In this document: one piece after another, positions 2,641 through 22,091 of the stretch
Numbering within the stretch: the stretch's first letter is position 1
Layout of the letters: every line of letters begins with the position of its first letter
NCBI GenBank assembly: GCA_022496205.1
Contig: WTXD01000173.1
Coordinates: 1 to 22,091, forward strand
Reading direction: 5' to 3'
DNA: 22,091 nucleotides
From: Gloeopeniophorella convolvens
Lineage: Eukaryota; Basidiomycota; Agaricomycetes; Russulales
The notes under the pieces: model-generated
What the model saw: the letters and a program-made list of their open reading frames with translations, nothing else
Database searches by the model: none
What the model was told of the DNA's origin: nothing
Position numbers and translations under genes: made by a program

Positions 2641-3884
2641 AAGAGTGAATACTGTAGAACCCAGGCATCCACCGGTTTGTGTGGGAGCACTTCCAAGGGC
2701 TCAACCGTGTCGTCCAGTGCATCAAGTATTCAGGCGGTACATTCTCTGGCCACAAGTCGGTCCTCTGCGTGGAAGAAATCATCATCGTCAGCCACCGCTG
2801 CATGCCAACTGGAAGACTTCCGGATCAGAGCAAGGTTGACAAGATCGTCAAGTGGGGCCCATGCAAGGACCTCTCAGACGTTCGGGCGTTCCTTGGAACT
2901 GTTGGCATCTGTTGTATCTTCATCAAGAACTTTGTGAAGTGCACTAACTCTCTCATTTACCTTACCTGCAAGGACGTGCCCTTTGTCTTCAGCCCTGAGC
3001 AGATCGCCGCTCAAGAAGACCTCAAGAACGTGCTTCTTACCTCTCCTGCACTCTGCCCCATTGACTACACCTCTTCTGCCCCCGTCATCCTTGCCGTCGA
3101 CACCTCACCCATCGTGGTGGGCTTCTATATCTGCCAACAAGACAAAGAGAACCCGTGCAAGCGCTACTTCTCATGCTTTAGCTCCCTTCCACTCAATGAT
3201 CGTGAGCACCGCTTCTCCCAGCCAAAACTCAAACTCTATAGTTTGTTCCACGCGTTGCGGGCTTATAAGATGTTCCTCATAGGTGTTCGCAACCCCACCA
3301 TCAAAGTCGATGCACATTACATCCGTGGGATGCTCAATCACCCTGACCTTGCGCCTTCTGCCAGCATGAATTGCTGGATCGTTTCCATACTCACTTTGAA
3401 CTTTGAACTTCGTCACATCCCCGGTGTCAGCCACGGCCCAGATGGTCTGTCGTGTTGGCCAGTCCAGCCTGACAACATTGACGACAATGTTGACCCTGAT
3501 GACTTTGACGATTGGATCGACAATCTTTATGGCTTCATTCATCTACTCAACCCAATGACTTCCACCCCTCGTTCCACTCTATCCCTTTTCACTCTCGCCG
3601 CTGACACGGCTGCATCTCATCTGGACGACATGGCAGATGACGTGTCAGAGTCAGATGGACCGCAACTTACTTATGACAACATTCTGCACTTCGACTTAGC
3701 GCGTCAAGTGGACAAGTGCCTCGAGATGGTGCACAACTGGCTGACGTTCCTAGAGTGGCCAGATGACCTCACCGATCGCAACTACGAGTCGCTAATCTGC
3801 TATGCAACCGCGTTCTTCCTTGACAACTTCGTGCTCTGGTGCCGTGACCCGCAAGGCACACATAAGCAAGTCCTCTACCCAAAC
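2641..3884 (+). pseudogene. RT thumb/connection and RNase H domain of the gypsy element
   Basis: One long frame from 2679 gives the RT C-terminal part (KYSGGTFSGHKSVL, PTGRLPDQSKVDKI, RAFLGTVG) and then the RNase H-like domain: VILAVDTSPIVVGFYICQQ with the first Asp, FSQPKLKLYSLFHALRAYK with the Lys-Leu substitution near the usual catalytic Glu, KVDAHYIRGMLNH with the second Asp, and HGPDGLS near the end. Many Cys, His and Trp residues occur where relatives have Arg (for example GICCIFIKNF, LSCWP), the pattern expected from CpG decay of CGN codons. The frame runs to TGA 3885-3887, where an Arg codon would fit, and then continues into integrase. Confidence 0.88.
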
Positions 3885-3887
3885 TGA

Positions 3888-4838
3888 CGCATCAATGTGC
3901 TTCACGCTGCCCACGACAACACCGGACACCGTGGCTACTATGTGACACACGCACTCATTGTGGAGCGGTACTGGTGGCCCTATCTCGGGCACAACGTGGC
4001 CTGGTTCGTCAAGACTTGTCATCTCTGCCAAGTTTGTCAGACCTGCAACATCGCTATTCCCCCGACCATTGCAACTCCCGCGCCACTCTTTGCAAAGATG
4101 TACATGGACACCATGCACATGCCTAAATCTAGCACGTTCACATACATTGTTCAAGGATGTTGCTCACTGACACATTATCCTGAGTTCTGGATGTTGCGTT
4201 GTGAGACAGGTCAGACCATTGGTGAGTGGATCTTTCAGGACGTCCTCTGTTGCTGGGGAACTCTCACTGAGATCATTTCCGACAATGGCAAGCCGTTCAT
4301 CGCCACCCTCGAGCATCTCAAGCAGAAGTACCATGTCAAACATATTCGCATCTTGGGGTACAACTCCCGTGTGAACAGTATTGCGGAGCGATTGCACTTC
4401 GACGTGCGCCAAGCGCTCTTCAAGGCAGCTGACAGTATCCAGTCGCAATGGTCGCAAGTCGCGCATTTGGTGTTCTGGTCAGAACACATCATAGTTCGTA
4501 AGTGTATGGGCTGCTCACCTTGCTTCACAGCCACCAGCGTCCACCCTATCATCCCGCTTGACATCCTTGAGTCCAACTACCTTCTTCCACCGCCCGACTC
4601 CATCCTTACCTCGACCGACCTTATTGCGCGTTGCGCCATCGCGCTCCAGAAACGTCCCAAGCAACTCGCACTCATTCGCGCCAAGGTTCACTCAGCCTGG
4701 AACAAGGCAGCGATCCACTTCGAACAAGAAAACACCGCCATCATCTGCACTTCGACTTCAAGTGCAGTGACCTCATGCTTGTGTGCAACACGGCCATCGA
4801 GAAAGCACTCAATAAAAGATGCGCGCCTGCTACCTTGA
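3888..4838 (+). pseudogene. Integrase of the gypsy element (H2C2 and DDE core)
   Basis: This is the same frame as RNase H, interrupted only by TGA 3885-3887. An N-terminal H2C2 zinc-binding region is visible (HAAHDNTGHRGYY ... CHLCQ, about 3903-4032). The catalytic core shows Asp at 4107-4109 (YMDTMH), Asp at 4281-4283 (SDNGKPF) and Glu at 4386-4388 (AERLHF), 58 and 35 residues apart, as in Ty3-type integrases. All three acidic residues survive. From about 4740 the frame slides: ENTAII is followed by out-of-family residues while the correct continuation appears in another frame. It would insert the cDNA in an intact element. Confidence 0.9.
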
Positions 4839-5130
4839 ACCTTATGTTGTCATCTCACGCAACCGCGGTGGCACATATATCCTCTGTGAACTCGACAGCA
4901 CCCTCGCCCACATGCCTTTTGCAGTGTTCTGCGTAGTTCCATACTTCACACGGAAGTTGCTTGTGCTGCCAGCACTTGACAACTTCATCGACGTGACCAC
5001 CATGCGCCTCAGGGAGATGGAGGCCTCTGCCGAAGAAGACCCCGACGCACACGCTGAACAGCAGATTGAAGACAACATTGATGATGAGCTCCCTCTCTTG
5101 CACATCTCGGAGATTGGCGACGACGACTGA
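4740..5130 (+). pseudogene. Integrase C-terminal tail / polyprotein end
   Basis: Continuation of the integrase C-terminal domain in two further frames: HFDFKCSDLMLVCNTAIEKA (about 4749-4810), then from 4819 RACYLEPYVVISRNRGGTYI, PYFTRKL and an acidic end rich in Glu and Asp closing with GDDD and TGA 5128-5130. The last frame is 103 codons. A GTYILCELD-like beta segment followed by a short acidic tail is typical of basidiomycete gypsy polyproteins. No chromodomain was seen. Confidence 0.8.
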
Positions 5131-5148
5131 GGACAGTCAGTTTTCAGT

Positions 5149-5165
5149 GGGGAGGAGGATAAGGG
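5149..5165 (+). other. Polypurine tract, second-strand primer site
   Basis: A GGGGAGGAGGA run followed by TAAGGG lies 18 bp after the gag-pol stop. A purine run between the end of pol and the 3' LTR is where plus-strand DNA synthesis is primed in LTR retrotransposons. It contains one T. Confidence 0.65.
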
Positions 5166-5312
5166 CAGTACCGTCTTCTGATGACTTCTGATTGGGTCTC
5201 GACTTGTCGTTTCTTTTCACGTTTGTGTTCCGCATCTCATTTGTTCCATTTGTGTTCCATTTTGTTCCGCTTCAGTTCTGTTTCTCGTGCTTTCCGCAAT
5301 ACTGGCAGCTAT
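5166..5312 (+). repeat. Probable start of the gypsy 3' LTR, interrupted
   Basis: The 147 bp between the purine tract and the palindrome contain no gene. The sequence is T-rich with repeated GTTCC words (TTGTTCCATTTGTGTTCC). By position it should be U3 of the 3' LTR. A clear TG start and the other end are not visible, so the exact boundary is unknown. Confidence 0.45.
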
Positions 5313-5584
5313 CTTTGTAAAGTAAAACATGGTAATATTCATATTTTGGTCTCATTTTCAGCATGAATTTTTGATACTATAGTAATGCTGATAATATAGC
5401 TATTATAGTTAAAACTTCTATAAAGTGCATACTACACTGCTAACATGATAGTGCCTACTACAAACACTATTATAAATACAATAGTATACTATGTATTATA
5501 CTATCAGTACTAGTAAATACTATAGTATATATATAGTCTTACTTAGTGTACTATAGTAAATGTTATAGTGTACTATATACAGTT

Positions 5585-6210
5585 CTACTAGCACTATAGT
5601 AATTACTATAGTATATTATATACAGTTCTACCAGCACTATAGTAATTACTATAGTATACTATACATGGGTATATCAGCCCTATAGTAAATACTATAGTAT
5701 AATATACATGGTTTTGTTAGCCCTACAGTAAAGATTATAGTATACTATGCATAGTTCTATCAGCTTTATAGTAAATACTATAGTATAATATATATGGTTT
5801 CACCAGCACTATATTGAATACTATAGTATACTATACATAGTATTCTTAGCCTTACAATGAATCTTACAGTATACTATCCATGATTCTATCAGCCCTATAG
5901 TGAATACTATAGTATACTATACATGTTCTACCAGTATCTAGTAAATACTATAGTATACTATACATGGTTTTGTCAGCCTTACGATAAATATTATAGTATA
6001 CTATACATGGTTCTATCAGCCCTATAGTGAATACTATAGTATAATATACATGATTCTACTAGTACTATAGTAAATACTATACTATACTATACTATACTAT
6101 ACTATACTATACTATACTATACTATATATAGTTCTATCAGCCCTGTAGTAAATACTATAGTATAATATACATGATTCTACCAGCACTATAGTAAATACTA
6201 TCCTATTCCA
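5585..6210. repeat. Diverged 43-bp minisatellite in the left arm
   Basis: Successive units begin at 5591, 5634 and 5677, giving a 43-bp period. The core reads CTATAGTAAATACTATAGTA followed by TACTATACATGG and a TTCTAYCAGCC-like end. About 14-15 diverged units are present, several of them self-complementary around TACTATAGTA. A pure (ACTAT)10 run lies at 6076-6125. The mirror copy is at about 7230-7860, with (ATAGT)11 at 7312-7366. Confidence 0.85.
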
Positions 6211-6573
6211 GACTCTTCCAGATTCTTCTGGGCTCTTCTATAGCCCACCTTGAGTTCCAGTATCCACCTTAGTTCCACTTTCATGTGGGTCACTAGTTAT
6301 CATATATTGCTGTGTTTATTACATGCAAACCACACTCTTTTTATGTATATAAGGGATGCTGTTTTTGCCCTTGTTGCCTCAATCTGTTAACTTCACTGAC
6401 TGAGGCAAGTACTTTACTTCTGGTACTTCTAGACTTGCGCTTACTTAGTTACTTTAGCTTTGCTCTTGCTTGCCTAGGTATTGCACCAATGATATAAAGT
6501 CTGTTGACTTCACTGACTAAGCTTTACTCTTGCTTGCCTAATTGGCACCCTGTTTCTACTATACTTCAACAAT
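6195..6573 (+). repeat. LTR-like segment inside the left palindrome arm
   Basis: This stretch aligns by eye with the 3' two thirds of the LTR relic at 13738-14203. Both have GATTCTTC...GGCTCTTC, CACATGGGT/CATGTGGGT, TTACATGCAAACC/TCACATGCAAACC, a TATA-like box (ATGTATATAAGG), two copies of GTTGACTTC...TGACT, ACTTTAGCTTTGCTCTTGCT, and the same end CTTCAACA (6566-6573). The 5' third of the LTR is replaced by the minisatellite. The right arm carries the mirror image (about 6886-7245) but lacks the CTTCAACA end. The 61-codon ORF in each arm is not a credible gene. Confidence 0.78.
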
Positions 6574-6885
6574 ATAAATAGACTCTTATATATATAAAGA
6601 TAGTGCTAAGACAAGCAGTCCTCAGACTATCCACTTGTGATATTTCTAATCTACCCAACTCATCATTCTTAGTATTCTACTAGTTGCCTTTGCTCTGCTA
6701 TCTTTATTGGTCTACACTAGCTAGTAGATTCAAGGCCAACACCTATAATATCAGTCCTTTACAAAGACTACTCTTTGTGAACCACCTCTGCTCCTCTATA
6801 TACTAGTATTATTGAAGTAAGTTGTAACAAGAGGCAATCAGCCTCTAGTGCATTAATAGAGAGCTACATTAAAGCACAGCAAGAT
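6574..6885. other. Unique loop of the palindrome
   Basis: This single-copy spacer lies between the arms, directly after the CTTCAACA end of the left LTR-like segment. It is AT-rich, with TATATATATAAAG near 6587 and the dyad GAGGCAATCAGCCTC at 6831-6845. I found no ORF of note, no transposase and no convincing primer-binding site. It may be leader sequence of the retroelement that supplied the LTR, but that is a guess. Confidence 0.55.
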
Positions 6886-8132
6886 AGGGTGTCAACTAGG
6901 CAAGCAAGAGTAAAGCTTAGTCAGTGAAGTCAACAGACTTTATATCATTGGTGCAATACCTAGGCAAGCAAGAGCAAAGCTAAAGTAACTAAGTAAGCGC
7001 AAGTCTAGAAGTACCAGAAGTAAAGTACTTGCCTCAGTCAGTGAAGTTAACAGATTGAGGCAACAAGGGCAAAAACAGCATCCCTTATATACATAAAAAG
7101 AGTGTGGTTTGCATGTAATAAACACAGCAATATATGATAACTAGTGACCCACATGAAAGTGGAACTAAGGTGGATACTGGAACTCAAGGTGGGCTATAGA
7201 AGAGCCCAGAAGAATCTGGAAGAGTCTGGAATAGGATAGTATTTACTATAGTGCTGGTAGAATCATGTATATTATACTATAGTATTTACTACAGGGCTGA
7301 TAGAACTATATATAGTATAGTATAGTATAGTATAGTATAGTATAGTATAGTATAGTATAGTATAGTATTTACTATAGTACTAGTAGAATCATGTATATTA
7401 TACTATAGTATTCACTATAGGGCTGATAGAACCATGTATAGTATACTATAATATTTATCGTAAGGCTGACAAAACCATGTATAGTATACTATAGTATTTA
7501 CTAGAGTACTGGTAGAACCATGTATAGTATACTATAGTATTCACTATAGGGCTGATAGAATCATGGATAGTATACTGTAAGATTCATTGTAAGGCTAAGA
7601 ATACTATGTATAGTATACTATAGTATTCAATATAGTGCTGGTGAAACCATATATATTATACTATAGTATTTACTATAAAGCTGATAGAACTATGCATAGT
7701 ATACTATAATCCTTACTGTAGGGCTAACAAAACCATGTATATTATACTATAGTATTTACTATAGGGCTGATATACCCATGTATAGTATATTATAGTAATT
7801 ACTATAGTGCTGGTAGAACTGTATATAATATACTATAGTAATTACTATAGTGCTGGTAGAACTGTATATAGTACACTATAATATTTACTATAGTACACTA
7901 AGTAAGACTATATATATACTATAGTATTTACTAGTACTGATAGTATAATACATAGTATACTATTGTATTTATAATAGTGTTTATAGTAGGCACTATCATG
8001 TTAGCAGTGTAGTATGCACTTTATAGAAGTTTTAACTATAATAGCTATATTATCAGCATTACTATAGTATCAAAAATTCATGCTGAAAATGACGACCAAA
8101 ATATGAATATTACCATGTTTTACTTTACAAAG

Positions 8133-10225: not shown

Positions 10226-10658
10226 CACATATGGACCAAGACCAGCTATATCAGTTATGGAATGGCCCGACTGCAGAATCTTCATATGACTCATGGACAG
10301 CCAACGTCGGCCAACCAGACCGTTTTCACCTATCAGTCATAGCGTCGGCCGACCATGTACCAAAATGGACCGTGCAAGCGTCGCTTTGAATGAAGGAACG
10401 ATTGGAAAAACATAAAATGAAGTATCTAAGGAGTGTTCAGAGAATGTTTGAGTAGTATCCAAGGAGTATCCAAGTATTCATTGAGTGATAAACACATAAG
10501 TACTTTAGTATAGTGAGTAGATACATTAGATGATTCCAAGGGCCCCCACTATACACATAACTCAGGTGGTGAGTGGTAAATTAAGATGAATGAGTGTTAC
10601 CATGTTACATTACATACTATGTAGCGCACTCTGAGTGCATATAAGGCAGAAACACGGA
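10226..10658. repeat. Repeat R, copy 1
   Basis: These 433 bp are repeated in the same orientation at 21659-22091 with no net length change, starting at the same word CACATATGGACCAAGACC. Copy 1 differs mainly at CpG sites, where it usually has TG or CA while copy 2 keeps CG (GGAATGGCCC versus GGAACGGCCC, CCAAAATGGACC versus CCAAAACGGACC). R contains the palindrome GTCGGCCGAC or its decayed form twice and one ACGGACCGTGC motif. Its start truncates the 5' end of the minus-strand gene at 10225, so 10226 looks like a true element boundary. It lacks a TG start, so it is not a standard LTR. Confidence 0.88.
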
Positions 10659-11480
10659 CTGTGCAAGTGCTATAGAATGGACCGTGCAAAGGCCCTATAA
10701 ACAAATCATATAAAATCTGTATATATAGTTCAGTTACTCTACATGTGCACGGTCCGTGCATAAAACGGTCTGTGTAGAGAACGGTCCGTGTAGAAAACGG
10801 TCCGTGTTTAGAATGATTAATGAACAGATTAGATCATGTTAGAGAATAGACTATGCACAGATCAGACTGTGCAGGCAGTATAGGTAATATCTGTGTGAAC
10901 TACTCATCCATAACCTGTTGTGCTAGGTATACAGAGTAGATAGGACTGCATCAATCAAGCTGTTGTAATGGCTATACTCAGATGGCTTTGATTATCCAGG
11001 TGTCAAGCATCATAAGACGTATCTTTACCTACAAGTAAGATATGCTCTCAAACTGAGAATACACTCTGCAAAGTCCTTCAATATGAGAAGGAGCCAGAGA
11101 TGAAGCATGTCCATTGGGGAGTGCATATACACTACAGGAATATTAGACTAGTTGTGAAGACTAATATACAATGAGATACAATAAGTGTACTAGGTGCAAA
11201 GGACTAGATACATCAAGTGACTGCAAGGTTGTCCACCACATACATAACTCAGATGATGAATGATAAATCAAGATGGGTAAGTGTAACCATAATACACTAG
11301 ATACTATGTAGTGTACTCTGAATGTATACAATGCAGAAACACAGACCATGCACACACTATAGAATGGACCGTGCAAGGAGTACTCATATAAGTATTTAAA
11401 ATCGATGGATATAGATTACTTACACTATATATGCTTCGACCGTTTCTGGATCGGACCATGTATTAAATGGACTGTGCAAA
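10516..11480. repeat. Diverged tandem duplication within and beyond R
   Basis: 10516-10830 and 11203-11480 are related direct copies about 690 bp apart. Shared landmarks are GATACAT, ACATAACTCAG, ACTATGTAG, ACTCTGA, GCAGAAACAC and CTATAGAATGGACCGTGCAA, in the same order. The second copy is clearly older. The interval has no credible gene; short AT-rich ORFs were dismissed. Confidence 0.7.
10749..10812. repeat. 16-bp tandem array of the ACGGNCCGTG motif
   Basis: There are four consecutive 16-mers: ACGGTCCGTGCATAAA, ACGGTCTGTGTAGAGA, ACGGTCCGTGTAGAAA, ACGGTCCGTGTTTAGA. The first is preceded by GC, making the full 13-bp dyad GCACGGTCCGTGC at 10747-10759. The array lies in noncoding DNA next to R copy 1. 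Confidence 0.85.
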
Positions 11481-11584
11481 AACTATGATCATGCTAATAC
11501 ACCTCAAACATCAACAAGCTAGGTACACAATAAATAAAAACTACCTAGGCAATGCAGTATAACCTAGAAACTATACTCCACCAC

Positions 11585-13181
11585 TCAAGAAGTCATTGGG
11601 AACTCTGCCTGCCCCTCGTCCTCTATTAGGATTGCTGCAGGGTAAGGAACAATGTCAGTACCACAAGATAGTGAATAGGGAGAAGAATTGTACCTAGCCT
11701 TTTCAGTCAGCATAGTGTTAGCTTTGGACGACTTGTGCTTGTAGAGAGTGCCATGGCAGGCACATCTTGGATGGATCTTGTAGCTGGAGATCTGTGGGGA
11801 GACTGTCCTCTTGGAGCCAAGCAAATTGATCTTTCTTAAGGGCACTCCAGCTAATAGCAAGGTTTTTGCGGCCTGTGACAAACTCTATATCATATTATAA
11901 GGAGTAATAAACAAGGTGAAGGGCGACTCACTGAGATGTAGGGTGAGAAAGTCTCTGACAGCACCCTGAATCACTTTGGCATGATGCTGAGAATAGTCTG
12001 CAATCACTGGAACCAGAGGACATCCTTCTCTATCAAGTTCAATCATGATCGGCTCATGATTGGCCTTTCCAGATGCTGCTGGTGCTGGAACATGCATAGC
12101 TAGCAGGGATATTAGTGATAGAGATATTGAAGACAGATAAACACGGACCATTTGCAAAGCACCTCTGAGAATATCTCTTCCAGCTATTCCACAATGGGGC
12201 TGTCTCCCAGTCTCTGATCATACTCTTGAAGTCAACTCCATTGTCAATATATTTGTTATACTCTTGTCTGATTACCAAATTAGCATTGTGCATAAGGGAT
12301 AATAGAAGCATATATTTCACTCACCCACAAGCTCTGATGGTATTTGTCTCATCTGTCCAGATGCAGAGGACAAATGTTCTGATACCACAGTATCGATATA
12401 GCTGCTCTGGAAGTCTCTGATCACTCTTCCTCGCATCTTAAGTGCAAGACTGTGAGATTGCACGGGCCGAACAGGGGGTTAGAAGGTCCGTGCAAAGGGG
12501 ACAATATGGAAATGACTGACCAACACTGGATCTCACAAGGTGGGCCTCTGAGAGACCACTCATTGGCTGTTTCCTGAAGCACAGCCATCTCATCTTCTGT
12601 CACAGGTGCCATGAGCTCTGTGGTGGTACGCTGCAGGTATCCAAAGTAGACTGGAGTGCCAGGAGGTGCTCCAGAGTTTGTTCAGTGAGATTCATGATCT
12701 TGTCACGGTTCTCTTGATAGAACACATTTCTGGCAGACCACTTGCGTGTGAAACGCATAAATCTGGCTAGGGCTTTGCGAGATCGGTTGTCAAACCACTT
12801 GCGGACTTTCTGAGCCAATGGTGAGCCAGAGAATGCTGAAATGATACATAGAACGGACCGTGCGAGCCTCCCCTTTGTCAAATCATCCCCCTCATCTCTC
12901 AGTGCTGTGAGGTCACCCAGAACACGATTGACTAGAAGAGCTCTGTCTGGTGCATCGCTGACTCGATACTCATCCAGATTCTCATGCAGAATCTCTAGAT
13001 CGGCCTCAGTCAGCTTGAAGGGAGAGTCATCATCATCCTCTTGTTGTATGTGGCCTTCTGAGCGATCAGGTGAGCGATCAAGATGATTTGAGGCAGGGAG
13101 AGGGTTTTCAAGGTCCCAGCCTTCTTGTTCATCTTCAGCAGGTCCAAAAACATCATCAGCAGTGTTGTAGAGATGGGCCAT
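11585..13181 (-). CDS. Spliced gene of unknown function, possible DNA-binding protein of the KDZ block
   Basis: Exons 13181-12537, 12436-12325, 12267-12149, 12084-11932 and from 11884 join in frame through GT-AG introns of 100, 57, 64 and 47 nt. The start is ATG at 13181 (MAHLYNTADDVFGP). An acidic N-terminus is followed by a basic region (VRKWFDNRSRKALARF, FTRKWSARNVF). A 1-base loss near 12672 moves the frame, which resumes GAPPGTPVYFGYLQRTTTEL and TEDEMAVLQETANEWS. Later exons give YRYCGIRTFVL, IDNGVDFKSM, DWETAPLWNSWKRY and FVTGRKNLAISWSALKKD, ending near DPSKM. I recall similar uncharacterised proteins in Agaricomycetes. WFDNRSRK loosely resembles a homeodomain recognition helix, and the GYLQRTTTEL part an HMG-like helix; both are weak. 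The 3' exon is unresolved, and 11585 is the end of a plausible final frame. Apart from the frameshift the gene looks intact. Confidence 0.66.
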
Positions 13182-13394
13182 AGGAGTAGTAGAGCAGTTG
13201 ACAGTAGTAGAGGAGTGATACAAGCTAGGAAATCAATGCAGATGGCTGATGCGTGCTCAAACATGCTGAATTCATATCTATGTGTTGAGATAATGATTAG
13301 ATGTGGGTGGAACGGGCCGTGATTGGCCGGGCCTGATGAGCAGTCATGTAAAGTGTAGATTGTGATCAGCACGGATATGATAAGATATGGCAAC

Positions 13395-13438
13395 ACGGGC
13401 CGTGTGTAGAACGGACCGTGCAGAACACCGTGCGACGA
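13395..13438. promoter_or_regulatory. Phased motif array upstream of the minus-strand gene
   Basis: There are three adjacent units of 16, 14 and 14 bp: ACGGGCCGTGTGTAGA, ACGGACCGTGCAGA, ACACCGTGCGACGA. They lie about 215-260 bp upstream of the start at 13181. A regulatory role is inferred from repetition and placement only. Confidence 0.55.
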
Positions 13439-13460
13439 CAATATTAAAGTAGTTCAAAAC

Positions 13461-13490
13461 ACACAAGTTCACACAAGTTCACACAAGTTC
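13461..13490. repeat. Three perfect copies of ACACAAGTTC
   Basis: The 10-bp word ACACAAGTTC occurs three times back to back, with a partial copy (GTTCAAAAC) just before. The function is unknown. Confidence 0.9.
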
Positions 13491-13580
13491 AGAGATCACA
13501 GAGCATGGCAAAAACGCGAGATACATTGTACAATAATGAGTGCAGACAGAGGGAAACAGAATATGGATAGTACAATGTAT

Positions 13581-14960
13581 TTAGGCCCTTGAGTGGCCAC
13601 TCATGATGGAAGCAAAGTCCCTCACCTGCTCACAGCGCCCCTTCAAGGCCTCCAGCTCACTGATGATGTCCTCCATCTCCCTGAGAACATCAACAAAGTT
13701 GTTGATGGTCCTGTGGGTCTGAGGGGAGGTGGAGATGTGTTGAGACGGACAGGACTCAGGACAGGAAGGACGTCTCTGATTAGATTAGATAAGGGACTCG
13801 ATGATTGCGAGCTATTGATCTACATGTATATGACATCATTATGTTCTAGCCTAAGGCTGTACTACTTCTTCTGTTCTAGATTCTTCGGCTCTTCCATGAC
13901 CACATGCAGTTCCGGGTTGACCCACTGCAGTTCGGTCGACCATTTAGTTCGCTTTCACATGGGTCTCTGGTTATCACATGTTGCTGTTGTTATCACATGC
14001 AAACCTCCTTTTGTGTATAAAGACGCTGTTTCGCCTTGTACTCAGTCTGTTGACTTCCTGACTGAGGCGTCTTTCTTCCGATTCCGCTTCTTATTACTTT
14101 AGCTTTGCTCTTGCTGCTAGTATGCGCCATGACATTCATCTGTTGACTTCATGACTGAGCTTTGCTCTTGCTCTAGTTGCACCTGTTTCTGCTGGCTTCA
14201 ACAGATGTCCTCAGCAGAGGGTCAGCCTCTGCACGGCCAGGGTGAGAGGGGAGCCTTGGGGACTCTTGAGGCTCATCCTTGATAATGGGGGAGTGCTGTG
14301 TTACCCTGGGGCGTTTCCTGGGCTGTTTGAGGCTCTAAAACAAGGTGAGATGTGTCTGGGATCAGACCATGCAACAGCGCACCTCAGGGGAGTCTGGCTC
14401 ATCCTGCACCTCGATCTCCTCGTCCTCATCCTCCTCAGCCGGCTCACTCTGGGTCTTCTGGGGTTTCTCCCATGCTTTCCATGAGCTGGCCAAGCTCTTG
14501 AGCTTCGCACCAGGGAGAATGGGTGAGGGAGGGGTGGGGGATGCCATTCTGACATCACCTGTGGCCTGCTTGACCTTGTTCTAAAGGATAACAGCTTGTG
14601 AGCATGGAGAATAGCACATATACATTGTCAGACTCACCTTTCCCTTTTCCACCTTCCTGGTGGGTGGGGCCTCTTCCCCAGACGACTCAAAGGTTGCCTG
14701 AACAGCCTTTGGCTCCTGCTTGGACCTGGTGGAGGCTGCACGGCTTGGTGCACGAGAGGCAGCAGGCTCTGGGGCCACCTTGTCACCCTTAGTGGATGAG
14801 AGTGACTCTAGAAACATGCAGTGAGTTAAATATCACACAGAATGGACTGTGACGCACGCTTGGAGGCCTTGGCAATGATGGACTTGCCACCAGGGGTCTG
14901 GGCAGGGGATGCACCCTTCTCCTGCTTGATGGGCTTTGGCTGAGGGACTTTGGGGGCCAT
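13581..14960 (-). pseudogene. Spliced gene of unknown function, Pro/Lys/Ser-rich with C-terminal coiled coil, interrupted by an LTR
   Basis: The start ATG is at 14960 (MAPKVPQPKPIKQEKGASPA). Exons 14960-14858, 14807-14638, 14580-14383 and 14334-14204 join in frame through introns of 50, 57 and 48 nt. The LTR relic 13738-14203 then splits the exon, and the last part, 13737-13581, ends in TAA with a heptad-like helix (INNFVDVLREMEDIISELEA). The middle is low complexity: APSRAASTRSKQEP, an acidic run AEEDEDEEIEVQDEPDSP, and basic KQPRKRPRV that could be a nuclear localisation signal. The frame before the LTR is off by one from the frame after it, so a small indel also lies here. It is divergent from the gene at 16036, and the shared upstream region carries motif arrays. 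Family not recognised; roughly 250 residues. Confidence 0.68.
13738..14203 (+). mobile_element. Solo LTR A, inside an exon
   Basis: This LTR starts TGTTGAGACGG and ends GGCTTCAACA, giving the TGTTGA/TCAACA terminal inverted repeat. A TATA-like GTGTATAAAG is at about 14014. Flanks are GATG on both sides (13734-13737 and 14204-14207); a 5-bp AGATG duplication would need loss of one A. It is diverged in sequence from LTRs B and C (which lie in the opposite orientation) and related to the LTR-like segment of the palindrome arms. No internal retroelement sequence accompanies it, so it is a product of LTR-LTR recombination. Confidence 0.88.
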
Positions 14961-15475
14961 TGGGACAGTTGAGGATATTGTGAGTGGGGAGGAGCAAGGT
15001 GGGAATAATCAGAGCGCTGCAAATGACCCTCAAGACACGCTGTGAACCAGACTGTGCAATACCCATCAAGGAAACATCTCTGTGATCAAATTGATCAATG
15101 CACAGACCATGCAGAACGGACCGTGCAATGCGGACCGTTCAAGCGATATCAGATCACCTGAAGAAGTGATGTCATTATCTAGATCTTGATCATAATCAGA
15201 TCTTTGTTGTGAATGACATCACTGGGCCTAGATCATTCTAGAAGTTGCCAGAATCTTCTCGCAACTTCTCTCAGCTTCTCCTATCACCTGACTATGATTT
15301 GTGATGTGCTAGAACGGTCCGTGCAATGACCCGGTCATGTGAGAGACCTGAGTCACATGCAGATCTCTCACACTTATCACATGTTCAGTGTGACATCAGA
15401 TCCTGTGATGTGGTGGCTGCATGTGATGAGAGAGTCTAGAATAGTCTAGAATCGAATGGAAACACTGAACCATTG
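14961..15475. promoter_or_regulatory. Upstream region of the minus gene at 14960, motif-rich
   Basis: No gene is evident. The region holds decayed and intact motif copies near 15050, 15102-15143 and 15312, and a 12-bp inverted repeat AGTGATGTCATT (15165-15176) / AATGACATCACT (15212-15223). Near its right end TCTAGAATAGTCTAGAATC resembles words inside the nearby LTRs and may be an older LTR scrap. With 15845-16035 it forms the divergent promoter of the genes at 14960 and 16036. Confidence 0.55.
15102..15143. promoter_or_regulatory. 14-bp phased motif array
   Basis: There are three adjacent 14-mers: ACAGACCATGCAGA, ACGGACCGTGCAAT, GCGGACCGTTCAAG. The first shows both CpGs changed to CpA. They lie about 140-180 bp upstream of the minus-strand start at 14960. 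Confidence 0.6.
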
Positions 15476-15844
15476 TGTTGAAGCGCAGCAGAGGGTGAAG
15501 TGACAACTGAAGGACACAGAGTGACACTCAGTCAGAGAAGGTCAAAAGACTGAGGCTACAGAGGCGAAGAAAGAGGTCCTTATATACAGTAAGGAGCGAC
15601 AGATAGCATGTGATAAACACTGCTTAGAAAGCCTAGGAGACCCACATGAAACGGAGTAAGAGTGGGTACCAGAGTACAAGGTGGGTCATGGAATGCCCTA
15701 GAATAGTCCAGAATCATGGAAACGAATGTGGGGCTGAACACAGCCTTAAGTCTAGAACATTATGTACACAAGATAAGATAGTCCTTGATCATTAGGTCCA
15801 TATCTAATCTAATCAGAGCCGCCAGGACACTGTCCGTCTCAACA
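15476..15844 (-). mobile_element. Solo LTR B, between divergent genes
   Basis: It begins TGTTGAAGCGCAGCAG and ends GTCCGTCTCAACA on the plus strand; its TATA-like box places it in minus orientation. A perfect 5-bp target duplication CATTG flanks it (15471-15475 and 15845-15849). It is nearly identical to LTR C except that C has an extra segment of about 117 bp. Confidence 0.95.
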
Positions 15845-16035
15845 CATTGTGTTGGTAATCTGATGGATCAATAGATGCGATGAGAACGGCCCGGTTTGGG
15901 CGAATGGAACGGTCCGTGCGAGGGGCATGCACAGCCCGTTTGTAGGCGCTTTGGGGGCATTTTGGGAACTCTGAGTCGCACTGAGTGCTTCCTCACATTG
16001 CCCAGCAATATCTCCACTTTATTCATCATTGCATC

Positions 16036-18042
16036 ATGGCTGCCATTGACCCCAAGCTTCTCAAGGACTACCAAAGGCTTCCCTTTCAGCAACAGAGGCA
16101 GATCCTCTGTGCTGGGAGAATTCTGGAGGCTCTCTTACTTCGAAGGCAAGGCCAGACAGCCTCTGATGATGTGCTCATGCTTGGTATCAATAGGGAACTG
16201 GTGAGTCTCAATCACACTCTCTAATCATTCTGCATTACTGATAGTGAATACTAGGCTGAGGCATCCATGTGGGAGGATCAGGATGCCAAGGATAGGGCCC
16301 ATCCCATCACTAGCTTTGTGGCTAGTTTCCTTGAGGAGGGGAACACAGATCTGGGTGAGATCAACCTAGATGAGCTCATTGAGAGGTGCAAAGAGCTGGA
16401 GGATGAGCATGGGGTGATTGCATGCAGTGAGCCCAACCTGTTCAATGATCAAGACCCATCCCACCCTGAGTGGTGGATGCTAGAGGGGGACAACAATGGG
16501 GAGGGAGATGGGGAGCCAGAGGGTGAGGAGAATGAGGAGGAGGAGGATGGAGAGGAAGAGCAGCCCTCTGGAGGTGCGTGGTGCACGGTCCGTGCATTCT
16601 GAACACTAACAGCCATTTCTACCTCGATTTCAGAGTCTGAGCAGCCTGAGGAGCCCCCCTCAGCGCCGCGTCGCTCGGGCCGTCTTCAACAGCGCAAGGG
16701 AGATGCTGCTGAGGCCCAGAAGACCCCCCAGAAGGTCCAAGACGACGATCAAGACGTCCCTCAATCGGTGAGCAGCTCAATCGCTGAAAGCTTCAAGGTG
16801 GGTGACTTTGAAGGCAATTCTGAACAGGGGGAGGTTGTGGAGCCTGTTGAGGCCCCATCAGCGGTCGTCTTGGGCAAGAGAAAGGCACGGCCCACTCGCC
16901 GTCGCGCCCCCACCGCCCAGGAGAGTGAAGAGGCCCATATTGTCACTCTGAACAACTATGACACGGTCCGTGCTTGCGATAACTCGCAGATTTCAACTAA
17001 TCGGTCCGTTCTCAGATGAAATGTGGTCCCTGCAATTGCCTTGTCAAGAAGTATGAGCCACAGAGCTCTACCTCCAGCAGCAGGGCCTACACATGCAAAT
17101 CCTGTCATGATGGCAAGATCAAGTGCTTCCCTGTTGCTGAGTGGGCTCTGCACATGTTGCAGAACAGGGAGAACTACATCAAGACACTCACAGAGGCTGA
17201 GTTTGTTTGTGAGTGCTCATTCTACTAATTTCTGATTTGTCTGACTATTTTAGCGAATGAGGAGCTCAGGGAGATGCTCACTGGCGTTGAGACCCTCACA
17301 GAGGGTCTCATATCTCAGCTGGGCACCCTGAACCTTGGCAGCAACCTCCCCTCTTGTGCCAACACCTCCACTGTCCCCAACCCCATTGACTCACCTGCAG
17401 GTTCGATGCAGTCATTTGGGATCTCGTGTTGAAGCGCAGCAGAGGGTGGAGTGACAACTGAAGGACACAGAGTGATGCTCAGTCAGAGAAGGTCAAAAGA
17501 CTAATACATTAGTGCAATACCTGAAGGACACAGAGTGACGCTACAAGGTAAGGTAAGCATAAGGTAGAAGTGAAAGGAGTGTAAGTGTACTTGCCTCAGT
17601 CAGAGAAGGTCAAAAGACTGAGGCTACAAAGGCGAAGAAAGAGGTCCTTATATACAGTAAGGAGCGACAGATAGCATGTGATAAACACTGCTTAGAAAGC
17701 CTAGGAGACCCACATGAAACGGAGTAAGAGTGGGTACCGGAGTACAAGGTGGGTCATGGAATGCCCTAGAATAGTCCAGAACATGGAAACGAATGTGGGG
17801 CTGAACACAGCCTTAAGTCTAGAACATTATGTACACAAGATAAGATAGTCCTTGATCATTAGGTCCATATCTAATCTAATCAGAGCCGCCAGGACACTGT
17901 CCGTCTCAACATCTCGAGGCTCACGGTAAATGACCCAGCAGCATCAGAGAGTGCCTCAGTGCCTCGTGATGCACGCAGCACGGGCCGTGCACCCTCCACT
18001 CGAGGTGCACGCCCCTCTGGCACTTCTGGAGGTCGTCGTTGA
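16036..18042 (+). pseudogene. Spliced gene: acidic protein with Cys-rich zinc-binding-like domain, last exon split by an LTR
   Basis: Exons 16036-16200, 16255-16573, 16634-16965, 17016-17208 and 17254-17426 plus 17917-18042 join in one frame through GT-AG introns of 54, 60, 50 and 45 nt. Phase is also kept across LTR C, giving 435 residues. The N-terminal part is helical and Gln-rich (MAAIDPKLLKDYQRLPFQQQ). An acidic stretch follows (GEGDGEPEGEENEEEEDGEE), then a basic RKARPTRRRAPT that may be a nuclear signal. A Cys-rich module CGPCNCL ... YTCKSCHDGKIKCF resembles the split zinc-cluster motifs of Agaricomycete transposon-linked proteins. A helix and a Ser/Gly/Arg tail follow (STGRAPSTRGARPS, which includes a translated motif copy). 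Intron 3 uses the motif itself as splice donor. With the LTR in place translation would stop early or depend on removal, so I call it disrupted. Confidence 0.72.
17427..17911 (-). mobile_element. Solo LTR C, inside the last exon of the Cys-rich gene
   Basis: It has the same TGTTGAAGCG...GTCTCAACA ends as LTR B. A perfect 5-bp duplication TCTCG flanks it (17422-17426 and 17912-17916). Removing the LTR and one TCTCG leaves the host exon in frame, so the insertion is recent relative to the gene. The extra 117-bp part repeats CAGAGAAGGTCAAAAGACT and GAAGGACACAGAGTGA, showing an internal duplication absent from LTR B. Confidence 0.96.
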
Positions 18043-18357
18043 AGGGCCTGTTTGTTTACTGTATTTTCTGTATCGTTGTGCATGCGTGCGAAGTCTGTAC
18101 GAATGTGAAGCTGCGTTGTTTTGCCTTTGACTCAAATTCGGCTTGCACGGACCATTCAAACAGTCCGTGCAGAACGGACCGTGCGACACTGCATGTGCAC
18201 AACTGCATGTGCCAAATGGCACGTGCAGAATGACACGTGAAGAATGACACGTGCAACACGGCCCGTGCCAGCCACAATATCCGAGCAACTCAGTCATTAT
18301 AACCATATTCCAGTTGTCCTACTGCTCACTATATTCCTCACTCTATTCTCACCATCT
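18043..18357 (+). promoter_or_regulatory. Upstream region of the KDZ transposase gene
   Basis: No gene is evident. After the stop of the Cys-rich gene, a T-rich stretch leads into the tandem motif array at 18149-18274. The transposase ATG at 18358 follows 83 bp later. The spacing suits a promoter with an upstream binding array, but no TATA box is convincing. Confidence 0.5.
18149..18274. promoter_or_regulatory. Nine-unit 14-bp tandem motif array before the transposase
   Basis: Nine consecutive 14-mers start at 18149, 18163, 18177, 18191, 18205, 18219, 18233, 18247 and 18261. Examples are GTCCGTGCAGAACG, GACCGTGCGACACT, GCACGTGCAGAATG and ACACGTGCAACACG. The CGTGC core (or its CpG-decayed ATGTGC) is kept in register in almost every unit. 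This is the longest array in the window. Confidence 0.82.
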
Positions 18358-21300
18358 ATGTCACCAAACTATATCAAGACAATTGACCTAGAGGATGAAC
18401 CCATCCAACAAGACACTAGAAATGTCCAAACCAGGACCAGTATTAGAACCTATGAGCGCACAGTGCGCTCAAAGCCATACCAGCGACCCAACAATCCTCC
18501 AGTCCGTCAGACACCCACTGCTGGCCCATCCAAGACACGCACAACCACTCAGGTGGTCCAGAATCAACCTAGAACGGCCCGTGCAACTCCCAGATATCCC
18601 CCAAATTATCAACAAGATGATGATATGATGGTGGTTGATGAAGAACCATCAGAGCTCCCACCTCATCCTCAGTTGGTCTGTAATATTCACATCTCATCAT
18701 ATTCTACTCATGGGCCATAGAAACCTATGGAGGAGTGGCTAGGACTCAGAGAGGATTATTTGAACATCCTTCTGCAGAGTGAAGGTCCTCAGAGTGGTCT
18801 TGTGTGCTCAGTCTGTGGTGTTGAGGGTCTACTGTCTTGTTCTGATTGCTTTGGACGACCTGCATATTGCAAGAAATGCTGTCTCAAGGCTCACAATCAT
18901 CTCCCATTCCACAGACCTTCTGCATGGACTGGATCACACTATTCTCCTGTGAGCCTCACATCCCTTGGCTACATCTTGTGCATGGGCCACAATGGACAGC
19001 CTTGTCCCTCTACTGTTGAGGTATGATGCTTTGCTTCTCTATGAACACTTACTCATTGTATTAGGGGAAACGAGCTGAGCGTGCTGCTGAGAATGCTAAT
19101 CAGGCTAGAAATATCAGTGTGCCAAGCAGAGGTCAGTCTTAGTATGCTTTCTTAGTGCAATTGTTTATTGATGACTTGTCTTTGATCTCCAGAGATACTC
19201 AGTTTGCCACTGAGGTTCAGAGACTTATGGCCATCTCTGTTGACCTTGTGTCTGAAGGCAGAGACTGGAATCTAGGACGAAGAACCAGGGTCACCAAGGA
19301 TTGACACAATTGTTACCATTGTTGATCGGACCTGGATATCCATCAGATCCCTGTGCTGTACTGCATTTGCCATGGTGCTGCTGACTTGGATCAACAACTC
19401 TTTGCCATGGGATTACTCCCAGCCACCTTCCAAACTGTGGAGACCATCTTCACCTTCACTGTGCTGGATGACTTTCTGGTGGATAATCTAGAGTGTAAGA
19501 CCACTGGACAGACCTATTATTCCAAGCTGCAGACCATCACCATAGCATGTTTCCTCATCGTGTTCCAGTAAGTTTTCAATCAATATGTCTGGTTGAGACA
19601 CATTAATATTGTGATAGACCCGATACAAGCAGCTACAACGTGCTTCAAGGCAGTGGAGAGACCTCACAAATAGGAAAAGAGCAGGTTATGGCCACACTGT
19701 GCCAGTCAAGGAGGAGGAGGGCTGCATGGCCATCTTCTGTCCAGCATGTCCTCAGCCTGGCATCAATCTGCCAGACAACTTCCAAGAGATCTACAAACTG
19801 TCAGTCTAACTTGTTGTTCAGTGATAATACAGCTAATAGTGACTTTAGTGAAGAGTTGGTTCGAACTTTCATCATGGATGGCAACTTCACTGCAGAGCAC
19901 ATGAGGGCTCGCACATCTGATGATGAGGTCCCTCTGTCTGAGGGAACTTCATTCATGGCTGAACCAACTCGATATAAGGAACATCTATCCACTGCCAATC
20001 ATAAAAGATTGTGAGTTATTGATCAGTACCACAATTGAGGTTTCTAATGTGTGATTGTAGAAAAGCACCTGTAACACCTATAGAGCCATTGAGATGGCCA
20101 ACTCTAGTCATCCTCATCTGATGTCACTGGGATAGGTGCCACTGCATGTGCCCATGGTTGTTTTGTGCCTACATCAGTTGTTGACTTCCAGAAGGGTGAA
20201 TGGTGCATGCACGGTCCGTGTTGAAACGGCCCGTGCTAAACGGTCCATGCTAACAGTCCATTTACACGTATCTATAACCACCAGACAAGCCAACATGGAC
20301 TACAGTCTCTGTCAGGCCCTCAACTACAACATGGATGGCATCCCCATTGCTGTCATCTCATATGACATCATGTGCCAGTATTGTGTCAATCTACTCAAGA
20401 GGATTGATGAGAATGCCTTGTTGTCCATCCCTGAGGCTCTCAAGCTTCGTTATGTGATTGGTCTCTTTCACATTCATGGCCACCAAGACACCTGTCTTGC
20501 TCGATTCTCACCCAGCTACACTCATGCTACCAGACAAGTGGATGGAGAGATCATTGAGACTCTGTGGTCAATATTGAACAACATATCTCGGAGTACTAGA
20601 GGGATGTCTCTAGTTCATCGTGCAGAGGTGCTAGATGCCCACATGAACTATTCTAACTGGAAGAAATTGATTAAGACGGTCCGTGCAATCTCAAATCTCA
20701 TCCTACTCATTGTTAACTGGTGTTCTAGTTCCCTTCATGCTGAACGCTGGAAGCATGTCCAGGAAGGTCTCCCTCTGAGTGAGGTGGCCTTTGTGGGCCT
20801 GAGTCAACGCTTCCCTACAATGATTGGGATCTGGGCACTGCAAGAGGCTGATGCACAGTCAAAGCGATGGGAGAATCCGAGGCAATGGATATCTATGAGA
20901 CAAAGACTAAGAAAGGTGAACATACTTGTTTGTGCCAATATGACTTCTCTGATACTTTGAGCACTAGCCCCCACTCGCTCAGAAGTTCAAACTGAGCTCA
21001 GTAAACAGAGAAAGCCTGGGACTCATCTAATGGCGAGGCCCAATGGATCTCATCTGGACTCACTATTCAGGAGACTCAGTATGGTCCATGTCTTTGCACG
21101 GACCGTGCAATTGCTGATTTTACCCCTCTAGACTTGGAATTAGAAGGTTCATTCGTGCAAAGAAGGGAAGATTCAACACAGCTGATAAGAAGACACTTGA
21201 TGATCGTCGAAGCAACCTACAATCCCTCATCAACAAGTTCCAGCATGAGGCTGATTCCTACTTGCTCAGACACACCAGTGTTGCTATCTCATCAATCCAG

Positions 21301-21657
21301 AAAATCAAGTCTTACCATGAGTTTGATAGAGCTGATCAAGTGGATGAAGATCAGATCAATGAATTGGACCGTTCTGATGATGAAGATGTGGAGAATGAAG
21401 GTGTCAGAGATGGAGATGATGGCTCTGCATCTGTGTTCCCTGAAGATGTTAACATCATGCTCCCCTCAACTCTAGGATGGACTTGGTGCCTCCATCATGG
21501 TGCCAAGTCACTTGCTGTCAAAGAAGCAAAGCTGAGGGTTGCTCAAGCTCATGATGCAATCCACAAGATCTGACTTGCCCTTGGATTCAAGTCTTCACTG
21601 ATCAGAACAAGGGTCAGGACTGCCAAGAGCCAGAAGACAAAGAAGAGTGCATGGAGC
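18358..21657 (+). pseudogene. KDZ-family DNA transposase with CxC2 cysteine cluster (3'-truncated, frameshifted)
   Basis: The start is ATG 18358 (MSPNYIKTIDLEDEP). Exon 1 (18358-18675) is low complexity; exon 2 (18721-19020) carries the CxC2 cluster (VCSVCGVEG, LSCSDCFG, YCKKCCLKAH). Downstream pieces are DIHQIPVLYCICHG, FTFTVLDDFLVDNLECKTTG, RASRQWRDLTNR, FCPACPQPGINLPD, FIMDGNF (19871-19888), VVDFQKGE, ANMDYSLCQALNYNMDGIP, YDIMCQY (20361-20381), FHIHGHQDTC (20467-20496) and VDGEIIETLW (20538-20567), all typical of KDZ transposases, which have an RNase H-like fold. Several 1-base frame breaks (for example near 19340, 19620, 20131, 20875 and 21035) and a TGA at 21571-21573 show decay. Homology ends at KTKKSAW, where repeat R begins, so the C-terminus is missing. 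About a dozen short introns are likely; some carry the motif. Confidence 0.9.
20203..20284 (+). other. Transposase intron built largely of tandem motif copies
   Basis: This 82-nt intron (GTGCAT...CCACCAG) separates DFQKGE from QANMDY. Its middle is four units, 20211-20225, 20226-20239, 20240-20253 and 20254-20267: ACGGTCCGTGTTGAA, ACGGCCCGTGCTAA, ACGGTCCATGCTAA, CAGTCCATTTACAC. The codon split by the intron now reads TG|A, a stop, which a C-to-T change of CG|A (Arg) would produce. Confidence 0.7.
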
Positions 21658-21658
21658 A

Positions 21659-22091
21659 CACATATGGACCAAGACCGGCTATATCACTTATGGAACGGCC
21701 CGACCACAGAATCTACATATGACTCATGGCCAGCCGACGTCGGCCGACCGGACCGTTTTCACCTATCGGTCATAGCGTCGGCCGACCGTATACCAAAACG
21801 GACCGTGCAAGCGTCGCTTTGAATGAAGGAATGATTGGAAAAACATAAAATGAAGTATCTAAGAACTGTTCAGAGAATGTTTGAGTAGTATCCAAGGAGT
21901 ATCCAAGTATTCATTGAGTGATAAACACATAAGTACTTCAGTATAGTGAGTAGATACATTAGATGATTCCAAGGACCCCCACTATACACATAACTCAGGT
22001 GGTGAGTGGTAACTCAAGATGAATGAGTGTTACCATGTTACATTACAGACTATGTAGTGTACTCTGAGTGCATACAAGGCAGAAACACGGA
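21659..22091. repeat. Repeat R, copy 2 (runs off the window)
   Basis: Direct repeat of 10226-10658, roughly 93% identical by eye. It keeps more CpGs: GACGTCGGCCGACCGGACCG and GCGTCGGCCGACCG are intact here and partly decayed in copy 1, so copy 2 looks younger. It begins just after the transposase homology ends and continues past the window edge. It may be the left end of a second, nested copy of the same element, or the right-hand member of a pair of long direct repeats bounding 10226-21658. Confidence 0.88.

Follow-up and report, generated by a model that had tools for sequence, protein, structure and literature searches.

A short dyad word recurs along the greater part of a block with a KDZ transposase gene in the basidiomycete Gloeopeniophorella convolvens (contig WTXD01000173.1; the window, i.e. 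the whole stretch analysed, is 22,091 nucleotides long). This raises the question of which protein, if any, reads the word. The initial annotation had described the dyad as dispersed over the KDZ block, and the counts, which lie far above those of shuffled sequence, bear this out. The 13-mer GCACGGNCCGTGC occurs in the window 4 times exactly, 14 times with at most one mismatch and 26 times with at most two, all inside positions 10360-21810. These 26 sites span 10.65-21.81 kb, and close to none are expected (mean of 0.0 matches with at most two mismatches in eight Markov shuffles of the block). With up to three mismatches, 41 matches are found in the window, 37 of them inside 10360-21810. As had also been stated, the motif is absent from the gypsy element and from the gene at 8.7-10.2 kb (0 matches with at most two mismatches in stretches 1-5400 and 8.2-10.2 kb).

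The KDZ block is part of an element of about 15 kb with terminal inverted repeats of about 1 kb. The window holds the left ~11.4 kb of one copy of this element, named family 1 (10226..21658, plus strand). Its left end, previously placed at 10360, is really at 10226, where the left terminal inverted repeat begins with CACATATGGACC (10226..11245, plus strand; counting the window, 22 matches span all 1020 bp and another covers 1-808). After 21658 the window copy is broken off by another copy of the element, inserted in the first, whose terminal repeat (21659..22091, plus strand) contains a dyad site of its own. Eight other family-1 copies continue beyond this position, and those of C21, C276 and C89 can be traced to an inverted left end 5.0-5.7 kb further (C21:31926, C276:1337 and C89:8672 on the minus strand). 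Terminal inverted repeats, a trait of the KDZ superfamily, are present in this sense, with the two ends taken from different copies. The outermost ~130 bp (10226..10355, plus strand) are common to other element families: matches of 76-79% limited to the outer 1-125/130 were found at C165:3730, C117:2799, C35, C359, C43 and C40:16079, and the family-2 right end matches the family-1 outer end at 72% over 159 bp. These outer 130 bp of the left end contain no dyad site even at three mismatches. The block is also interrupted by three solo-LTR-like insertions, at 13738..14203 (minus strand; ends TGTTGA..TCAACA, 4-bp duplication GATG), 15476..15844 (plus strand; duplication CATTG) and 17427..17911 (plus strand; duplication TCTCG). 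The last lies inside a zinc-cluster gene and is missing at this place in C164, C220 and C165. Used as an internal negative control, the three insertions have 0 dyad sites, against 4.6 expected.

The sites themselves are as follows; those starting at 10747, 13393, 15100, 16583, 16961, 17978, 18256, 20209 and 21096 are listed without strand and all others on the plus strand. In the left terminal repeat, two sites with two mismatches (10652..10664 and 10675..10687) precede an exact site (10747..10759) that opens a series spaced by 16 bp, with members at 10779..10791 (two mismatches) and 10795..10807 (three mismatches, core ACGGTCCGT intact). Sites with two mismatches follow at 11362..11374, 12460..12472, 13310..13322 and 13393..13405, the last with its neighbour 16 bp on (13409..13421, one mismatch), and a one-mismatch site at 12851..12863 falls in a coding exon of a minus-strand gene. 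The site at 15100..15112 has two mismatches here and at most one in another copy; the next site is 14 bp on (15114..15126, one mismatch). Further one-mismatch sites lie at 15312..15324 and, upstream of the zinc-cluster gene, at 15907..15919. Within that gene, by a hand-made model, an exact site occupies an intron (16583..16595), a one-mismatch site overlaps the 5' end of an intron (16961..16973) and another exact site lies in the last coding exon (17978..17990). Then come 18145..18157 (two mismatches, in a series of 13-14 bp), 18172..18184 (one mismatch) and, between the zinc-cluster and transposase genes, 18256..18268 (one mismatch). In the transposase gene, a one-mismatch site is found in a coding exon (18572..18584), and one intron holds both 20209..20221 (one mismatch; homology with C140 breaks at 20206-20282) and 20224..20236 (two mismatches). 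The site at 20674..20686 (two mismatches) sits at the 5' border of a probable intron, where similarity to C140 is lost at 20672-20706 and to C5k at 20696-20745, and where frame residues 182-201 are skipped or contain stops in other copies. The fourth exact site is intronic (21096..21108; homology break 21083-21129 against C140), and the site in the second copy, 21796..21808, has two mismatches. Earlier coordinates had mixed starts of the 13-mer with starts of the core: 13411 refers to the core of the 13409..13421 site, and 15308 is corrected to 15312.

The core had been taken for a perfect dyad except for its central base, but the flanking bases do not bear out full symmetry. Among the 20 intact cores ACGGNCCGT in 10226-21658, the next base is always G, and the preceding base is A in 11, C in 8 and G in 1. 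On the left side of the element most asymmetric sites are oriented rightward, and near its right end most are oriented leftward. According to the hand-made exon model, only 3 of these 20 core sites fall in coding exons, which make up 58% of the sequence (P 9e-5), the other 17 lying in introns and spacers. The decayed copies that had been reported are confirmed, several places being degraded in the window as compared with other copies. In all, 29 places have a site with at most one mismatch in at least one family-1 copy, window included, and altered motif CpG cells among the copies read TG or CA in 148 of 151 cases.

At the scale of the genome, confinement to the KDZ block holds for family 1. 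Of 39 exact GCACGGNCCGTGC sites (17 for the control pattern read backwards), 38 are on family-1 contigs, counted by hand as those with a family-1 terminal repeat or close KDZ sequence; the remaining one is at C112:934270. The pattern AACGGNCCGTGC has 176 sites against 23 for its control, and 94 of the 100 matches listed are on family-1 contigs (hand count). The initial annotation would have been contradicted by equal density in unrelated sequence or by lack of enrichment around other KDZ copies. The motif does not reach the same density elsewhere, and other family-1 copies are enriched in it, but in other KDZ families it shows no enrichment; these have words of their own. Separately, a host-like locus at C1:1387-1391 kb was seen to carry 11 CGGNCCG cores in 4 kb, with no similarity to the element.

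Two genes of the window copy encode Cys-rich proteins. Gene A (16036..18039, plus strand; exon borders set by hand) encodes a protein with an N-terminal domain, a WW-containing middle domain, an acidic linker and a Zn2Cys6-like cluster (17022..17126, plus strand). In the window this gene is decayed and split by the solo LTR; the third Cys of its cluster is replaced by Tyr, and the six-Cys pattern misses this copy. The less decayed C164 copy retains the Cys and reads C-x2-C-x6-C-x13-C-x2-C-x6-C. Family 1 encodes three such related proteins. The KDZ transposase gene (18361..21658, plus strand; ATG chosen by hand), cut off at 21658, matches CxC2 (PF18803, 19326-19568, E 4.9e-16) and the KDZ domain (PF18758, 20136-20957, E 9.8e-29); both the CxC cluster and the KDZ domain that characterize the superfamily are thus present.

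Eight zinc clusters, from families 1 to 4 and from C297, align with six invariant Cys and, in 8 of 8, the spacing C-x2-C-x6-C-x(11-13)-C-x2-C-x6-C, two of them (C140 and C5k) having been picked only by this spacing. Similarity led to the clusters of families 1, 2 and C297, whose proteins have N-terminal and middle domains in common; the C140 protein shows a weak N-terminal match. The Pfam model matched by most clusters is Zn_clus (PF00172), with E values of 10 or less for six of the eight (best 0.0012) and no match for the C297 and C5k clusters. None of the eight reaches the PF00172 cut-off of 21 bits, the best scoring 19.3, and matching is limited to about half of the cluster (12-14 of 39 positions). 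The clusters therefore resemble Zn2Cys6 clusters but are not assigned as members. A profile search of the PDB with them gave nothing significant; AlcR, the sole Zn2Cys6 protein among three insignificant matches, was second (E 4.6). The six-Cys pattern had 0 matches in the five stretches L024, L029, L033, L048 and L058 (18.7 kb), and a pattern search of the C9 stretch showed no zinc cluster.

Three other families combine zinc clusters with a dispersed CGG-containing word of their own (TGACCGGWCCGGTCA, TGCGGAGCA and CAACTCCGGAGTTG). Counted over 16 stretches, with shuffle figures given as the mean of eight Markov shuffles, motifs and families form a nearly diagonal table. The family-1 motif m1 occurs 25, 16 and 10 times in the three family-1 stretches (shuffles 0.0 each) and 0-1 times in the other 13. 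The motif m2, GACCGGNCCGGTC, occurs 21 and 20 times in the two family-2 stretches (shuffles 0.2 and 0.0), 6 times in C297 (0.2) and 0-1 times in the other 13. For m3, TGCGGAGCA, the counts are 10 in C9 and 25 in C5k, which are homologous stretches (shuffles 2.1 and 2.8), and at most 4 in the other 14; for m4, AACTCCGGAGTT, they are 10 in C140 (0.2), 1 in C5k (0.6) and 0 in the other 14. The case for a family-specific dispersed word is strong for families 1 and 2 and weaker for families 3 and 4, whose discovery and scoring came, post hoc, from a single scan. Across the genome, the family-2 word hardly exceeds its control (79 matches, control 64), and the same goes for the family-4 dyad, with 6 occurrences (control 4), two of them in C140. 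The family-2 loci showed no KDZ match in their vicinity, and at the distant KDZ loci L024, L029 and L033 no word was enriched over shuffles.

In families 1 and 2, the sites concentrate CpG. They make up 4.5% of the family-1 window sequence and 55 of its 205 CpG (27%), 5.3% of the C89 right part and 38 of its 132 CpG, and 6.4% of family 2 and 39 of its 82 CpG; outside the sites, CpG o/e is 0.28, 0.32 and 0.18, respectively. In families 3 and 4 no such concentration is found in the sites (3-5%). Among present family-1 copies there is no conservation of the dyad sites: motif CpGs decay as fast as others (TG/CA 25.6% vs 20.3%), and non-CpG positions are more variable in sites (6.5%) than outside (2.3%) or in 15-bp flanks (5.1%). 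The genome contains DNA-methyltransferase-like genes.

Fungal Zn2Cys6 regulators such as Gal4 and AlcR bind CGG triplets. The element clusters resemble theirs in six-Cys spacing, and the putative targets contain CGG/CCG; they differ in scoring below the Pfam cut-off, in lying near the C-terminus with a Pro after the sixth Cys, and in a CGG-CCG gap of one base in families 1 and 2. We consider that the element's own zinc-cluster protein is probably the binder of the word. Family-1 zinc-cluster proteins would bind GCACGGWCCGTGC through its CGG/CCG half-sites in the Zn2Cys6 manner, as the CGG/CCG in each family word leads us to infer, and cooperative binding may occur on site pairs 13-16 bp apart. 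That the dyads are binding sites of these proteins, each family having its own protein-word pair, seems fairly likely; such pairs would let a family recognise its own copies along their whole length. The initial annotation had proposed a binder encoded by the block and had named two candidates, the Cys-rich protein and the CxC2 transposase. The former gains support from the six-Cys spacing, the three family-1 proteins and the clusters and words of the sister families; the scatter over the whole element and the dyad-free outer termini speak against the latter.

The KDZ transposase has diverged along the same family lines, so that covariation by itself cannot separate binder from bystander. Sites of the KDZ/CxC2 transposase, used for synapsis, would be an extreme form of the subterminal repeats of Ac/Ds and Spm, and the common divergence of transposase and word, the Cys cluster of CxC2 itself, the position of the first, weak site 137 bp from the terminus and the density of the first kilobase (6 sites, the highest) agree with this. 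We nevertheless hold it unlikely, because the sites continue at 2-4 per kb through the rest of the window copy and run through the right part of the element in C89, and because the cross-family outer ~130 bp, the likeliest target of a transposase, has no family-1 site. The transposase sites of Ac/Ds and En/Spm, which are likewise short words repeated in an element, cluster near the ends; the dyads run through the whole element.

Slightly less probable still is a neutral origin of the sites, in which slippage, duplication and gene conversion would have multiplied a short tandem unit that no protein reads. Small arrays with a period of 14-16 bp, an excess of neighbouring pairs 12-17 bp apart (7 vs 0.67 expected) and the lack of conservation among present copies fit such an origin, but 17 of the 26 sites stand alone, with no other site inside a distance of 17 bp, the CpGs of neutral units would be expected to have disappeared from an element in which CpG decays, exons are avoided, and four families have four CGG words. 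Least probable of all appears a host factor, nucleating silencing or regulating as a zinc-cluster protein, that would target the words in place of the element's proteins. Host zinc-cluster regulators do bind CGG triplets, a CpG o/e of 0.2-0.3 outside the sites suggests heavy past methylation of the elements, and the host-like locus has its 11 cores; against this, neither a different word per family nor the keeping of sites that attract silencing is easily explained, and the exact m1 is nearly absent from the rest of the genome.

What would binding by the zinc-cluster protein achieve? The VANDAL elements of Arabidopsis, which are Mutator-like, encode VANC anti-silencing proteins that are not of the zinc-cluster type and that bind the word of their element and strip it of methylation in trans. 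To our knowledge, element-encoded anti-silencing with dispersed recognition words is known from this one plant transposon group. The fungal case shares with it a DNA transposon, a short family-specific word, mainly non-coding and partly in small arrays, and an element-encoded protein family that diverges along with the word. It differs in concerning fungal KDZ-type elements and Zn2Cys6-like proteins, with putative binding and demethylation; membership of the VANDAL group was rejected, the transposase here being KDZ and not Mutator-like. Together, the dispersed words, the zinc-cluster genes and the different words of the sister families suggest a possible self-recognition system like the plant one. 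By analogy with VANC, binding may counter host methylation and silencing, or activate all genes of the element. Anti-silencing as its purpose is put forward tentatively. With similar reserve, we propose that several KDZ-type families recognise themselves over their whole length each through a dispersed CGG word of its own to which a zinc-cluster protein, diverging in step with the word, would bind and thereby undo silencing, a fungal counterpart of VANC derived from another fold.

Because the words and proteins are short and well delimited and differ from family to family, direct tests of binding, of specificity and of any influence on methylation are possible. KDZ (Kyakuja-Dileera-Zisupton) transposons with CxC clusters were reportedly described by Iyer in 2014, and the window element carries the corresponding PF18758 and PF18803 domains; as far as we know, dispersed family-specific dyads and such zinc-cluster proteins are not part of that description. 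If the proposal is true, fungal KDZ elements and plant transposons would have evolved counter-defence against DNA methylation convergently, and this would suggest why KDZ elements carry extra Cys-cluster genes.

Within the window, the dispersed 13-mer GCACGGNCCGTGC is found by pattern count in 4 exact copies, at 14 sites with up to one mismatch and at 26 with up to two, all of them in 10360-21810; at up to three mismatches, 37 of 41 window sites lie within the same limits. Markov shuffles of the KDZ block (10226-21658; n = 8) gave a mean of 0.0 sites at up to two mismatches. The window contains 21 copies of the core of the word, ACGGNCCGT, of which 20 are in the block and one is in the adjoining copy. 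The site is skewed, since a G follows all 20 cores of the block and a C precedes only 8 of them. According to an exon model drawn by hand, coding sequence makes up 58% of the element, but coding exons hold just 3 of the 20 cores (P = 9e-5); six cores lie in introns, either of the zinc-cluster gene or of the transposase gene. At the four cores in introns of the transposase gene, protein similarity to contig C140 or to C5k, a related stretch on contig C5 of the same genome, is also interrupted at or near the site. Sites without a neighbour within 17 bp make up 17 of 26; pairs 12-17 bp apart were observed 7 times in this element family (family 1), versus 0.67 expected. Such an excess was not borne out in the sister family 2 (3 versus 2.2 expected, a count made imprecise by partial matches that overlap).

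The genome used for comparison comprises 36.7 Mb in 404 contigs, the window being the whole of contig C83. Comparison with other copies in the genome places the left end of the element at 10226, where it starts with CACATATGGACC. Eight other copies continue past 21658, and in three of them (C21, C276 and C89) the left end can be traced again, inverted, 5.0-5.7 kb further on. Because copies extend in this way to an inverted left end, the element has terminal inverted repeats of about 1 kb and would measure about 15 kb without later insertions, a length pieced together from copies each showing one end. It encodes a KDZ transposase (PF18758, E = 9.8e-29) with the CxC2 cysteine cluster (PF18803, E = 4.9e-16; both from Pfam). 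Three solo-LTR-like insertions with 4-5-bp duplications interrupt the block; they contain no site at up to three mismatches, versus 4.6 expected, and the sites are therefore those of the element and not of the locus. A second copy starts at 21659, inside the first. This end and those at C276:1337 and 8440, C117:17377 and C89:8672 lie within another family-1 copy or abut a solo LTR, and nested family-1 clusters may break the assembly. A minus-strand gene of the element (11596-13171) gave no Pfam match above the cut-off, the best being DUF7853 (E = 0.044). Elsewhere in the window, 5465-7972 holds two AT-rich tandem arrays of a 43-bp unit, inverted relative to each other and with about 17 copies each; DNA similar to this pair adjoins a family-1 left end at C164:1-936.

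Genome-wide, 39 exact sites of GCACGGNCCGTGC were counted, versus 17 for a control consisting of the pattern read backwards, and by hand count 38 of the 39 are on contigs with the family-1 terminal repeat or close KDZ sequence. For AACGGNCCGTGC, 176 sites were found versus 23 for the control; among 100 sites listed, 94 are on such contigs. The terminal repeat itself has 22 matches across its full 1020 bp, the window's copy counted. A lone exact GCACGGNCCGTGC at C112:934270, on a contig where no family-1 sequence was detected, is possibly a host target. Two look-alikes were set aside. The stretch C1:1387-1391 kb (L058, C1:1387224-1390333), chosen for four ACCGGNCCGGT hits, has 11 CGGNCCG cores within 4 kb, but was taken as host DNA; its CpG observed/expected ratio is 0.93, and comparison with C5a, C89 and the window revealed no similarity. 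The word AAGTACAA, enriched in C117, C164 and C220, is not dispersed: it belongs to an array with a 25-bp period, AAGTACAAAGGG, that lies close to either end of an element inserted in family-1 copies (C117:3.5-9 kb, L036; C164:3.4-8.1 kb; C220:1.8-6.3 kb) and called copia-like from reading its ORFs.

Sister families carry different words. The family-2 loci, C5:4.9-9.8 kb and C372:797-801.6 kb, have zinc clusters of about 40% identity in the similarity search and are 99% like each other; they are without the family-1 word and have 17 and 18 sites of the TGACCGGWCCGGTCA type. Their right end is 72% identical to the family-1 terminus over 159 bp, and no KDZ match was seen at these loci. The KDZ family of C9 and C5:34-45 kb (family 3), whose two stretches are homologous, has the words TGCGGAGCA and GAGCAAACA, part of the sites of the latter being in series spaced by about 70 bp; the KDZ family of C140 (family 4) has CAACTCCGGAGTTG. 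The table of words by families is nearly diagonal. In an enriched-word scan, which for families 3 and 4 served both for discovery and for scoring, six family stretches reached -36 to -130, and none of their shuffles went below -16.4. Seven of twelve other stretches scored no better than -15.5, and the five at -29 to -33 contain element pieces or a tandem array: C40:15.5-20.5 kb, a control stretch with an enriched word, contains a family-1 repeat, and C165:1-3.8 kb, a control with the word ACCGGTCC, carries the shared terminus at 3730. Three distant KDZ loci show neither an enriched word nor a zinc cluster. Genome-wide, the words of families 2 and 4 exceed their controls only slightly (79 versus 64 and 6 versus 4, respectively). 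A locus on C297 (L052, C297:9029-11125), with a zinc cluster, 6 weak family-2-like sites and no clear word of its own, was assigned to none of the families and is perhaps an old or intermediate one.

The block is poor in CpG, with an observed/expected ratio of 0.37; the gypsy part has 0.81 and the left gene 0.79. Sites hold 55 of the 205 CpGs of the family-1 window sequence in 4.5% of its length, 38 of 132 in the right part of C89 (5.3%) and 39 of 82 in family 2 (6.4%); with sites at up to three mismatches left out, the ratios are 0.28, 0.32 and 0.18, respectively. In families 3 and 4, sites hold only 3-5% of the CpGs. Protection of the motif CpGs in present family-1 copies was rejected, TG/CA amounting to 25.6% at the motif versus 20.3% at other CpGs, and non-CpG positions of the sites show no conservation among these copies. 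Selection in the active lineage presumably kept the sites, which dead copies would now be losing. Genome searches found DNA-methyltransferase-like genes; a Tet/JBP search had no match, its control likewise matching nowhere.

The Cys-rich gene at 16036-18039 (A) encodes a member of a protein family that combines an N-terminal domain, a middle domain with WW, an acidic linker and, towards the C-terminus, a zinc cluster; for the middle domain, Pfam gave no match at E up to 1. With the window's cluster as query, 33 matches were found in the genome. Family 1 encodes three such proteins, A in the window and, in the right part of the element, B and C (both in C89, C117 and C398, C additionally in C276). 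Family 2 has two zinc clusters in C5 and the C297 locus has one; none was seen in the C9 stretch. The clusters of C140 and C5k were picked up by spacing pattern alone; the C140 protein shows a weak N-terminal match to the family, and none was aligned for C5k. The spacing C-x2-C-x6-C-x(11-13)-C-x2-C-x6-C is found in all eight aligned clusters. The window's own copy is decayed and has lost one Cys that C164 keeps. Six of the eight aligned clusters match Pfam Zn_clus when E values up to 10 are admitted, C140 scoring best (0.0012), none above the cut-off and each over just one half of the cluster. A PDB profile search gave nothing significant, AlcR coming second (E = 4.6).

Zn2Cys6 proteins read CGG triplets, and CGG is present in all four family words. 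The most likely reading is that in every family the dispersed word is bound by the zinc-cluster protein of that family. We regard the zinc-cluster protein as the probable binder, with slightly reduced confidence because the Pfam matches cover only half a cluster and two clusters were recognised only by their spacing. This proposal is weakened above all by the joint divergence of transposase and word, so that the transposase could itself be the reader, although coverage of the whole element fits end cutting less well and the outer 130 bp or so common to the families contain no family-1 site. If the zinc-cluster protein is indeed the reader, that of each family would dock on its own word along the whole element. 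Because coverage is element-wide, it can be proposed that docking marks the element for anti-silencing or activation rather than for end cutting; the pair of word and zinc-cluster protein would then parallel VANDAL elements and VANC.
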